Positions 26,734 through 30,996 are shown, numbered from the stretch's first letter. The stretch: 33,082 nt of DNA from Anaerolineales bacterium (GCA_004376895.1 SOIH01000224.1:1-33082), one strand, 5' to 3'. Translations and numbers: made by a program. Notes: generated from the sequence alone by a model not told the origin.

Positions 26734-27783
26734 TTAGCTCCCGCCGCCGTTGCCACTGGGCGGTGTTGGTGTCGGGGATGGTGTTGGGGTTGCGGTTGGT
26801 ACCGGTGGAGGCGCCGATTGCGTTGCACAAACATCATCGGCTTTTGAGGCAGTCGGTGCTAAATCGGGGAATTCCCAGGCGTTAAGCGCGCCAATGTATT
26901 GCTCTGAAGCGCCGCAGGGATCACCCTCATCCCAGAGTAGGTCGCCGTATTTCCATGCAGTTTCAGCATACTTTCTGCATGAATCGAGTGTGGCGACTTG
27001 TTCGCAGAGTGGAAGGAAGAGCTCAGACGCGCGAGCCCAATTTAGTCCGATGTAGCTGTTTGCAAGAAGATACTGCTGCGCAAGAGTCATTCGGAACATT
27101 GCATCTCGATCGAGAGGGCCAAACCGTTTTGCAAGGCTCAGGTTATACAGTCCTTCTTCCATAAGCCCCTGGGCGATTAGATCCATACCTTTGTTTCGAA
27201 GTGCGATGTACATCAAACCATCCACTTTCACAGGTTTGTACGCTGGATCTTTGGCACGCAGCGCGAGCAGTTTGTTAATGACAGTATCCCAATCCTCGTC
27301 TGCCATTGCGGCTTTCGCTTGTTCCAAGAGATCCTCGGGCGGGGAGAGGTCCGGGGTGGGTGTTGGTTCGGATGTGGGAGTTACTGTCGGTACATTAAGA
27401 TGCGTTAGCGCTTCAACGAGCATGTCCTCTGCGCCGGGATAAGCGGGGTCAAAGTAGATGATGGCTTCAAACCGCTGTCGAGCGATCTCATAACGGCCAG
27501 CTTCAAGATCGGCTATGCCGAGTTCAAACTGCTCATACATCGCCTCGGAGACCTGTGCTATCTGCTCAGCGATATTGAGCCCACGTCCTTGGAAATAAGC
27601 CATCAGACCGATGGCGACCAGCGCAGCAAGGTAAACGAGAAAGATATGGAACATTCTTCGTCGCGTCGAGCTTCCCGATCGTGAAGGTATAACCTGCGAA
27701 CCTTCTGGTTCGGTTTCCGCTATGCTCTGAGGCGCGATCTCATCTGGATTCGGTAATGTTGGCTCTGATTTCACGGGGCGCAT
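26734..27783 (-). CDS. Membrane-anchored TPR-like protein with Pro/Thr linkers
   Basis: 349 aa; one TM helix (MFHIFLVYLAALVAIGLMAYF), PTVTPTSEPTPTPDLSPP linker, helical repeats, C-x28-C, tail PTATPTPSPTPTPPSGNGGGS. Confidence 0.8.
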   Translation of the reverse strand: MRPVKSEPTLPNPDEIAPQSIAETEPEGSQVIPSRSGSSTRRRMFHIFLVYLAALVAIGLMAYFQGRGLNIAEQIAQVSEAMYEQFELGIADLEAGRYEIARQRFEAIIYFDPAYPGAEDMLVEALTHLNVPTVTPTSEPTPTPDLSPPEDLLEQAKAAMADEDWDTVINKLLALRAKDPAYKPVKVDGLMYIALRNKGMDLIAQGLMEEGLYNLSLAKRFGPLDRDAMFRMTLAQQYLLANSYIGLNWARASELFLPLCEQVATLDSCRKYAETAWKYGDLLWDEGDPCGASEQYIGALNAWEFPDLAPTASKADDVCATQSAPPPVPTATPTPSPTPTPPSGNGGGS

Positions 27784-27851
27784 TATACCGTACTTGAGTT
27801 TGAAGCTGGTTACGCGCGGAAAAAATATTGGCTAATGTCCTTTGGCATGCG

Positions 27852-27870
27852 ATCTCGACAAGATCGAGAT
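27852..27870. promoter_or_regulatory. Inverted repeat in the divergent TPR intergenic region
   Basis: ATCTCGA-CAAGA-TCGAGAT. Confidence 0.35.
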
Positions 27871-27914
27871 GATCAGAGCAGGGAATGCGGTGGAGATACG
27901 TAGTGTGTCATTTC

Positions 27915-27944
27915 TTGACGCTCGGTTGCAGCGGGTGGTAAGAT
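27915..27944 (+). promoter_or_regulatory. Promoter of the + strand TPR gene pair
   Basis: TTGACG (27915-27920), 18-bp spacer, TAAGAT (27939-27944). Confidence 0.6.
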
Positions 27945-27961
27945 GCTCACCCATGTTATGA

Positions 27962-27977
27962 TGTGACGGGGTTCACA
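27962..27977. promoter_or_regulatory. TGTGA-N6-TCACA palindrome (CRP/FNR-family consensus) just before the TPR start codon
   Basis: TGTGACGGGGTTCACA, 7 bp upstream of ATG 27985. Confidence 0.45.
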
Positions 27978-27984
27978 AAACCGG

Positions 27985-29256
27985 ATGTATTTAAGCGGAA
28001 GCAAATGGAATTTACGGAAGAAGCGTAGGCGTTCCAGCCCCTGGCGTGTGCTTCTAATATTGGTTTTTATCGCTGCGGCAGTGTATTTTTGGCAGATTTA
28101 TATCCCCACCATACCGCCTCCCTTTATCCCGACACCCACGCCCACTCGAAGCCCAGCATCTTTTGTTCTAGAGGCGGAAAGTCTCTTCGATTCTGGGAAA
28201 TTAGAGCAGGCAGAAGCGGCGTATTTAGAGGCGATTATGGCCGACCCGCGTGAGCCGGCTCATTATATTGAACTGGCGAGGGTACGGATGTTCGCTGGGA
28301 AGTACGAAGATGCGGAGATCACAGCTCGGGATGCACTTGTGCTCAACCCGGATTCGGCTGTAGCGCATGCGTTCTTGGCTTGGTCACTAGATTTCCAGGC
28401 TGGCGAGGCTGAGGATCGACTCACCAAGAGTGAATTAATAGTCGAGGCGCTGCAAGAAGCCGAAACCGCACTCGATCTTAACCAGAACATCACAGAAGTC
28501 CAAGCGATATACGCTGAGATCCTGATTGATACAAACCTTGAAAATTACGAAACCGCGCTTGAGCATGCTCGAGCCGCAGTAGCCATAGACAACACCTCAT
28601 TGGAGGCTCATCGCGCGCTGGCTTACGTATGGGAGATGACGGGGAATCGGGAACTAGCGCTTGAATCCTACGTAACTGCACGTAGCCTTAACTCCTATCT
28701 TCCACGCCTGCATCTCGACATCGGAAATATGCTGCGGGCGATGGGAGATACTGATGGGGCTCGAGTGAGTTACCTCAATGCCGTCGCTCTCTCACCCACG
28801 AGTACAGAGCCGCTCACGTATCTGCTGCAGCTTTATGCAGGCATTGGGGAGTATGGTGTGGCAAGTCAATATGCTCGCAATGCCGTTGAACTCGATCCGG
28901 CGAACCCCCGCCTGCGGGGGAATTTGGGCCGAATGTATTATCACAACGGTGTATTGGATGAAGCAATCGTTCAGTTTAATCTTGCAGTCCGCGGCGGGCA
29001 ATCCGATGAAGGTGTATGGGTAGAAGGCCTACCCCTGAAGAAAGAGGATTTCCGTATCGTAGAGTTTTACTACACCTATGGATTGGCGCTAGCAAAACGG
29101 AATTCGTGCGAAGAAGCTATCCAGATCTTCGAGGCGATCCTGCAAACGATCCCGGAAGATGAGATTGCTGTTTTCAACGCCCAGGAGGGGCTCATCCTGT
29201 GCGGTGAATTAGAGCGGCCACCCACGCCTGAGGTGGAATCCAGTCCGGCCTCCTGA
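27985..29256 (+). CDS. Membrane-anchored extracytoplasmic TPR protein
   Basis: 423 aa; RKKRRRSSPWRVLLILVFIAAAVYFW TM anchor, PTPTPTRSP linker, multiple TPRs (e.g. AEAAYLEAIMADPREPAHYIELARVRMFAGKYEDAE). Confidence 0.88.
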   Translation: MYLSGSKWNLRKKRRRSSPWRVLLILVFIAAAVYFWQIYIPTIPPPFIPTPTPTRSPASFVLEAESLFDSGKLEQAEAAYLEAIMADPREPAHYIELARVRMFAGKYEDAEITARDALVLNPDSAVAHAFLAWSLDFQAGEAEDRLTKSELIVEALQEAETALDLNQNITEVQAIYAEILIDTNLENYETALEHARAAVAIDNTSLEAHRALAYVWEMTGNRELALESYVTARSLNSYLPRLHLDIGNMLRAMGDTDGARVSYLNAVALSPTSTEPLTYLLQLYAGIGEYGVASQYARNAVELDPANPRLRGNLGRMYYHNGVLDEAIVQFNLAVRGGQSDEGVWVEGLPLKKEDFRIVEFYYTYGLALAKRNSCEEAIQIFEAILQTIPEDEIAVFNAQEGLILCGELERPPTPEVESSPAS

Positions 29257-29269
29257 TCCCAATTATGCC

Positions 29270-30934
29270 ATGCGTTTAACCGGTGAAAGACTCAAGCTGA
29301 GCCAAGGTCGAGGTCGATCAAATCCTTGGCGTATCCTTGCACTTTTGTTATTAATTGCGGGGGGCTTTCTGCTCCTTCGCGCTGAGAGGCAAGGAGATGT
29401 TCAGCCGCTGTTCTCGGCCACGCCAACCGCAACCCGTACCGGGGCTTCTTATGCCGATGAGGCGAAGGTCCACTTCTTCGCTGGCGACTTGGAGAGCAGC
29501 ATTGAGGCCTACAAACATGCCGTACGTGTAGACCCGGAGGATGCAGCTCAATGGGCAATGCTGGCACGTGCGCAGACGTACTCGAGCGACCTCCTAACAA
29601 CGCTCGATCTGCGCCGCGAGCGATTGGATGAGGCGCGCTCTTCGATCGATCAAGCTAGAGAAGTAAACCCGGACAATTCGTTTGCCTACGCGATCCGGAC
29701 ACTGGTTTACGACTGGTCTGCTTCGTCAGAAGTGAAGGATACCATTACTAGCGGCGATACAGTCCGCGTTTCTGCAACGATCGGCGAGGGTGGGCGGATC
29801 TCCGCTAATGTGATTGAACTCGAAGGGGCTGCAGGAGATGAAACACCTGCTTTGGGTGTCGAAACCGAAGCGAACCTGCGCTTTTCGGGTTTAGTCGAAG
29901 CGACCGGCGATGAATACTGGGTGATCAGCGGTCGTACCGTCTACCTAACCCCGCTTACAGTGATCCGCGAGAAGAATCGCAAGGATGCCTTCTTGGCCGA
30001 AGCCGAGCAAGCTGCTGTGCGAGCCTCCCAGTTGGACCCGGATAACTTCCTAGCAAGTGCCTTTCACGCAGAGGTGTACGTCGACCAGGGCGACGTGCGT
30101 CAAGCTGCTGACCTGGCGCAGATCGCAGTAGATCTGGCGCTTGAGAAGGGGATCGAGCGACAGTTCCTCATGGACATATACCGCGTCTATGGCACTGTCC
30201 TGGAGAATCAGGCGTGGTATCGCAGCGCGATCGAAGCCTATCAGGAAGCGGCGAATATCACGCCAAACTTCACTCTCCTTTACCTTCGCATCGGTAACAA
30301 CTATCGAGCATTATCCGATTTCGACACCGCGCTCACGTACTACGATAAGGCTGCAAAGATCAATTCGCAGCTCGGAATCGATGATCCCACACCCTATCTC
30401 GCGATTGGAAATACCTATGCCCGGCAGGGGGAGTTCTTCATTGCTGCGTTGAATATCGAACGGGCGCTTGATATCGATCCATCGAACCCGAATATTTATG
30501 GCCGCTTGGGAAGCGTATACTTCCGGGCAAGGAATTACGAGAGCGCAATCCCGGTGCTGAAGTGTGCTGTAAGCGGCTGCGATAAGCCCGAAACTGGTGA
30601 CTTACTGTGTGAGTTGAAAATATACCTGTGCGATCCGGGCAGTGAGATCGCTTCGGAAATCGGCGAAGACGTGGTTGGATTGCCGCTGAGTGATGCAAGT
30701 GTGGAGTACTACTACACCTATGGATCGGCTTTAACCTTCTACGCTAAAGAAAAGGATGCCTGCGAGAGAGCCGAGGAGGTCTTCTTGGAATTAATGGCAG
30801 TGTATGGGCGGGACCCGATTGTAGCCGCGATTGTAGAGGAGGGACGGCTTGTATGCCAAGAGGCTCTGGCTTCCCCAAGTCCCCCAACCGAAAGCTTGTC
30901 CACCCCAACACAGATTCCAAGTGCGACACCTTGA
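29270..30934 (+). CDS. Membrane-anchored extracytoplasmic TPR protein, tandem paralogue with inserted domain
   Basis: 554 aa; GRSNPWRILALLLLIAGGFLLL anchor, TPRs, insertion at aa ~156-234, Ser/Pro/Thr tail; aligns to the preceding gene. Confidence 0.88.
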   Translation: MRLTGERLKLSQGRGRSNPWRILALLLLIAGGFLLLRAERQGDVQPLFSATPTATRTGASYADEAKVHFFAGDLESSIEAYKHAVRVDPEDAAQWAMLARAQTYSSDLLTTLDLRRERLDEARSSIDQAREVNPDNSFAYAIRTLVYDWSASSEVKDTITSGDTVRVSATIGEGGRISANVIELEGAAGDETPALGVETEANLRFSGLVEATGDEYWVISGRTVYLTPLTVIREKNRKDAFLAEAEQAAVRASQLDPDNFLASAFHAEVYVDQGDVRQAADLAQIAVDLALEKGIERQFLMDIYRVYGTVLENQAWYRSAIEAYQEAANITPNFTLLYLRIGNNYRALSDFDTALTYYDKAAKINSQLGIDDPTPYLAIGNTYARQGEFFIAALNIERALDIDPSNPNIYGRLGSVYFRARNYESAIPVLKCAVSGCDKPETGDLLCELKIYLCDPGSEIASEIGEDVVGLPLSDASVEYYYTYGSALTFYAKEKDACERAEEVFLELMAVYGRDPIVAAIVEEGRLVCQEALASPSPPTESLSTPTQIPSATP

Positions 30935-30969: not shown

Positions 30970-30996
30970 TTAGCACTCTAGTCAATAGAGTGCTAA
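30970..30996. promoter_or_regulatory. CIRCE element (HrcA operator)
   Basis: TTAGCACTC-TAGTCAATA-GAGTGCTAA, exact match to TTAGCACTC-N9-GAGTGCTAA. Confidence 0.97.

Follow-up and report, generated by a model that had tools for sequence, protein, structure and literature searches.

Analysis of a 33,082-nucleotide window from an Anaerolineales bacterium uncovered three neighbouring genes whose products are probably membrane-tethered, extracytoplasmic TPR scaffolds of the Anaerolineae, with a disulfide-stapled end and a likely task of holding partners or clients at the membrane surface. There is good, though indirect, support for exported TPR solenoids whose end is stapled; the scaffold role is plausible from TPR biology. 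The open reading frames C, A and B together fill the interval 26734–30934. Gene C (26734–27783, − strand) encodes a membrane-anchored TPR protein of 349 aa that falls in no Pfam or NCBIfam family but belongs to a class-wide family, and it lies divergent to gene A (27985–29256, + strand), which encodes a membrane-anchored TPR protein of 423 aa. Gene B (29270–30934, + strand) follows and encodes a 554-aa paralogue of A (BLASTP 9e-24; tree). The window is a contig of a Chloroflexota MAG, and the closest named record to A, "Anaerolineales bacterium" E44_bin32, is 96% identical. A second C-type gene is present in the same genome (G000:C152, L087 6700–7875), adjoining an LCP-family gene.

Each protein contains a basic stretch, a single hydrophobic N-terminal helix, and then TPR helices with Pro/Thr-rich segments, an arrangement that an earlier note on this DNA had described for all three. 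The predicted TM helix of A (28039–28101, + strand; aa 19–39) follows RKKRRRSSPWR, while the predicted TM segment of C (27598–27654, − strand; approximately aa 44–62) follows STRRR and forms the start of a long N-terminal helix in the structural model. In A, a beta-hairpin insert with the conserved pattern GG-x4-G..VEGLPL (28993–29032, + strand), modelled as strands and containing invariant G337, G338, and G343, precedes the last TPR. The TPR region of B contains an inserted DUF5666 domain (29888–30058, + strand; aa 207–263; Pfam PF18914, 36.2 bits against a cut-off of 27). Three DUF5666 stretches also occur in a separate protein encoded upstream in L065 (3495–4451).

All three proteins contain a pair of cysteines near the C-terminus. 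The cysteine codons lie at 29107–29109 (Cys375) and 29200–29202 (Cys406) in A and at 30761–30763 (Cys498) and 30854–30856 (Cys529) in B, all on the + strand, and at 26914–26916 (Cys290) and 26827–26829 (Cys319) on the − strand in C. The spacing is C-x30-C in A and B and C-x28-C in C; the open reading frames, codon positions, and spacings of the earlier note were exact to the base. Cys375 and Cys406 are the sole cysteines among the 423 residues of A. B contains a second pair (Cys432 and Cys437 in LKCAVxGC, C-x4-C; 30563–30580, + strand), which is invariant in 46/46 sequences and is possibly another disulfide or a metal site. Besides this C-x4-C motif, two further cysteines are often found in the region 30563–30631 of B.

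In order to assess conservation, as the earlier note had proposed, homologues were gathered from 151 genomes of the order, truncated open reading frames were excluded, and 40 loci with flanks were taken and aligned; beyond the order, the class contributed 60 A-like and 40 C-like loci, to which 20 others were added. Within the order, every complete homologue retains the two cysteines (A, 50/50; B, 42/42; C, 52/52), at identities as low as ~30–40%. Across the class, the pair is found in 68 of the 70 complete A-like proteins, with a spacing of mostly x26 and in some cases x27–x34, and in 47/47 complete C-like proteins, 45 of them with exactly x28. The two A-like exceptions (L252 and L274) have lost the first cysteine but contain another nearby. 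A-like proteins from more distant members of the phylum have either both cysteines or neither (neither in six, one only in none), and in the pair-less proteins the first position often has a residue typical of TPRs (e.g., Tyr). The tally is 163 proteins with both cysteines, six with neither, and two with the second only and another cysteine nearby. Some class A-like proteins contain a looser second pair, C-x15-C, near residues 126–142, but often as a single cysteine; by contrast, the C-terminal pair is tightly held. The pair is not a product of chance.

Structure prediction with AlphaFold2 was conducted for A and C, each from an alignment of six sequences, and reached a pLDDT of 88.7 for A and 73.9 for C, the five models of C spanning 51–74 (moderate confidence). 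The modelled C-terminal stapled unit of A (29050–29202, + strand) consists of helices 356–371 and 375–388 and a cap, 393–405, while that of C (26821–26982, − strand) consists of the last TPR helices, 268–285 and 289–302, and a capping helix, 308–321. In the model of A, the second helix of the last TPR opens with Cys375, while Cys406 comes directly after the capping helix; in that of C, Cys290 lies in the first turn of helix 289–302 and helix 308–321 has Cys319 in its final turn. The C profile also aligns this unit with the terminal repeats and capping segment of consensus TPR proteins. In a TPR stack, the second helix of the last repeat and the cap are antiparallel neighbours, so that the start of one lies beside the end of the next. 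The earlier note had asked whether the pair is close in space; judged from predicted helix boundaries rather than from coordinates, the cysteines of A and C would sit at facing ends of adjacent antiparallel helices. A disulfide here would join the cap to the last repeat's second helix, and B, whose fold is taken from that of A, is presumed to be built likewise.

The sequences suggest that these units lie outside the cytoplasm. Given the basic stretch before the sole TM helix, the positive-inside rule makes an N-in topology with an extracytoplasmic TPR domain most likely. The same orientation, proposed in the earlier note, is supported by class relatives of C, many of which contain an N-terminal CxxC-x10-CxxC zinc-ribbon motif, expected to be cytoplasmic, and bear a PD40/TolB-like propeller, or another domain, after the stapled TPR. 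L180, L181, L183, L184, and L251 encode a TM helix, a stapled TPR, and a TolB/PD40-like propeller in a single chain, some with the N-terminal CxxC..CxxC.

An exported Trx-VKOR fusion is encoded in the genome studied, and VKOR is found in 81/101 genomes of the order, this one included. DsbA-like thioredoxins were recovered from 19/19 genomes tested, while a search for DsbB found none in 19 genomes. In family f13, VKOR is mostly absent and the cysteine pair is nonetheless kept; taken with the DsbB result, this leaves the oxidant not settled for all genomes. Two loci (L290 1076–2395 and L293 978–2246), from genomes with no detected VKOR, encode a secreted fusion of a DsbA-like thioredoxin and a cyclophilin. 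Paired conservation, paired absence, helix-end geometry, and the exported Trx-VKOR together indicate that the pair behaves like a structural disulfide. The proposal that the last repeat is closed by a disulfide finds support in part, in that the predicted bond would bridge the last TPR to the cap rather than close one repeat on itself.

In order to understand how the three proteins are related, profiles, pairwise searches, and a phylogenetic tree were compared. The C-terminal profiles of A and B match at 98.7% in hhalign, and in a tree of 181 sequences the order's A and B proteins group in a single clade (support 1.0), with B as a clade inside it (0.92), which places the duplication at the base of the order or close to it. 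By these sequence comparisons A and B are true paralogues. Between C and the others, BLASTP returned 0.46 (C/A) and 0.004 (C/B); the stapled unit is the best-matching window of C against A with the cysteines included, but once the cysteines are masked, other TPR windows match at least as well. The resemblance between the C and A/B units could accordingly not be told apart from generic TPR similarity, and C is not demonstrably related to A and B beyond the TPR level. The shared frame and the diverged-paralogue origin that had been suggested for all three thus apply to A and B, but not specifically or demonstrably to C.

TPR membership is clear for A and B, which score well above the cut-offs of several TPR models, and the models of A and C show helical hairpins. 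C, although it has no Pfam match, consists of helices throughout, and consensus TPR chains match its profile. The named TPR families PilW, PrsT, MamA, GltE, and Tgl all scored far under their curated cut-offs. TPR_21 (PF09976), which we take to be the YfgM-type model, scores 20.3 for A against a cut-off of 25.5 and has no match to B or C. An Hcp/Sel1-like assignment was rejected as well, with no Sel1 match and a single conserved pair in A and C, in the last repeat only. Comparison of C as a single sequence with PDB sequences gave no match, and the fold search against solved structures recovered generic TPR solenoids only, with low whole-chain TM-scores for C and NlpI among its weak matches. 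Family models are thus generic TPR models for A and B, and none for C.

A-like genes were found in 150/150 class genomes sampled and C-like genes in 115/120. Divergent C/A neighbours occur in family f1, in several other families of the order, and at class loci L250–L252, while in many families C lies elsewhere; the recurring divergent layout anticipated by the earlier note is therefore common but not universal. In the window, a CIRCE (HrcA) operator (30970–30996, + strand; 0 mismatches, chance 0.03) is located between B and groES-groEL, a position that recurs across the class. CIRCE occurs ≤450 nt behind B in 18/28 order loci, behind the single A-like gene in 15/71 class loci, and behind C in 0/71. 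A parvulin lipoprotein gene comes after groEL in six loci. C-type genes are also found near DUF5107/PEGA genes. An M28/DUF4910 peptidase-like gene adjoins A-like genes in 12 class loci (e.g., L253, L270, L274, and L288) and in some loci stands between A and C.

Under the reading we favour, A, B, and C would each cross the membrane once, with the basic N-terminus in the cytoplasm and the TPR solenoid outside it; a structural disulfide would staple the C-terminal capping helix onto the last repeat's second helix, thereby locking the exposed solenoid end on the outer cell face. They would serve as core envelope scaffolds of the class, and most likely keep partners or clients in place at the membrane surface; the identity of any partner is a guess. 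The location of A and B ahead of CIRCE-groESL, followed in some families by the parvulin lipoprotein gene, favours a role for this pair in folding or handling exported proteins, possibly as a membrane co-chaperone. CIRCE, however, provides groESL with its own promoter, so adjacency to A and B need not imply shared function, and in many genomes (e.g., L169) A is located elsewhere than groESL. Gene neighbourhood is also all that distinguishes folding and export from wall assembly. The suggestion that the proteins form a sensor found no support.

A scaffold for cell-wall assembly, which would organise the enzymes of peptidoglycan or wall polymers on the membrane and use the disulfide for stability only, has perhaps one chance in four of being correct. 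C-type genes adjoin LCP-family genes (the second C-type gene in four f1 genomes) or MurJ with RodZ and RimO (three other genomes), an A-like gene in L169 (4416–9410) adjoins nrdR, ftsZ, ftsA, and an ftsQ-like gene, and NlpI, a TPR adaptor of wall hydrolases, is among the weak fold matches of C; yet the A/B pair itself is linked mainly to groESL, the fold matches are generic TPR proteins, and no domain ties the proteins directly to wall binding. We consider it improbable that the cysteines serve instead as a redox switch, bind a metal, or provide a site for thiol attachment. Such a role would fit the persistence of the pair in f13 genomes with no detected VKOR or DsbB, and B has two further cysteine pairs that might bind metal, but A has only these two cysteines, which in this group of proteins lie 27–35 residues apart on two helices and form no CxxC, their spacing drifts while both are kept, and the DsbA-cyclophilin fusion is exported in f13.

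Somewhat stronger, though still doubtful, is the view that these are ordinary TPR surface proteins with unrelated roles, in which the staple is a convergent stabiliser and the clustering incidental. The A and C units, once masked for cysteine, are no more alike than any two TPRs, and many families show no linkage of C to A; against this, the divergent C/A adjacency recurs in several order families and in other families of the class (L250–L252), and the A-like and C-like families are both near-universal in the class. A similarly tentative idea is that one A/B-type and one C-type protein form a class-wide, near-universal two-part envelope system, with ancestrally divergent genes and oxidised C-terminal staples, that acts outside the membrane to handle exported proteins or build the envelope.

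Membrane TPR proteins are common, and several known systems resemble the stapled scaffolds in part. YfgM of E. coli combines a TM helix with a periplasmic TPR domain and is a partner of PpiD at SecYEG (PMC9643414). A and B share its single N-terminal TM helix and extracytoplasmic TPR domain (by predicted topology), and the parvulin-type PPIase gene near A/B in some families is an arrangement comparable to YfgM-PpiD. Their solenoid, however, is longer than that of YfgM and has the cysteine staple, and the TPR_21 match of A stays under its cut-off. The nearest known disulfide-held helical-repeat proteins are the Helicobacter cysteine-rich proteins (Hcp), whose Sel1-like repeats are bridged by disulfides linking a repeat's end to the beginning of the following one (PMC3851747). 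A, B, and C would likewise be extracytoplasmic helical-repeat solenoids with disulfides between helices, but their bonds would be placed differently, with one staple fixing the C-terminal cap onto a TPR solenoid. NlpI-type TPR lipoproteins are also envelope adaptors, although NlpI is lipid-anchored and occurs in diderm bacteria, and its sequence kinship with C is at the TPR level only. TolB/PD40 propeller proteins are approached by the class relatives of C with a propeller after the stapled TPR, which the C of the window lacks. Our literature searches on Anaerolineae envelope TPR proteins and on TPR capping-helix disulfides turned up no report of such a staple.

A disulfide fixed at the last-repeat cap and shared, almost without exception, by two protein families throughout a bacterial class would be unusual, and suggests that the exposed solenoid end is under strong selection. 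Essentially all genomes sampled from this widespread and poorly cultivated class encode the proteins, and this near-universal occurrence without a specific family model makes them good candidates for core Chloroflexota envelope biology. A, B, and C may therefore represent an unstudied, near-universal cell-envelope scaffold of the Anaerolineae, and would offer a simple test case for oxidative folding in Chloroflexota.
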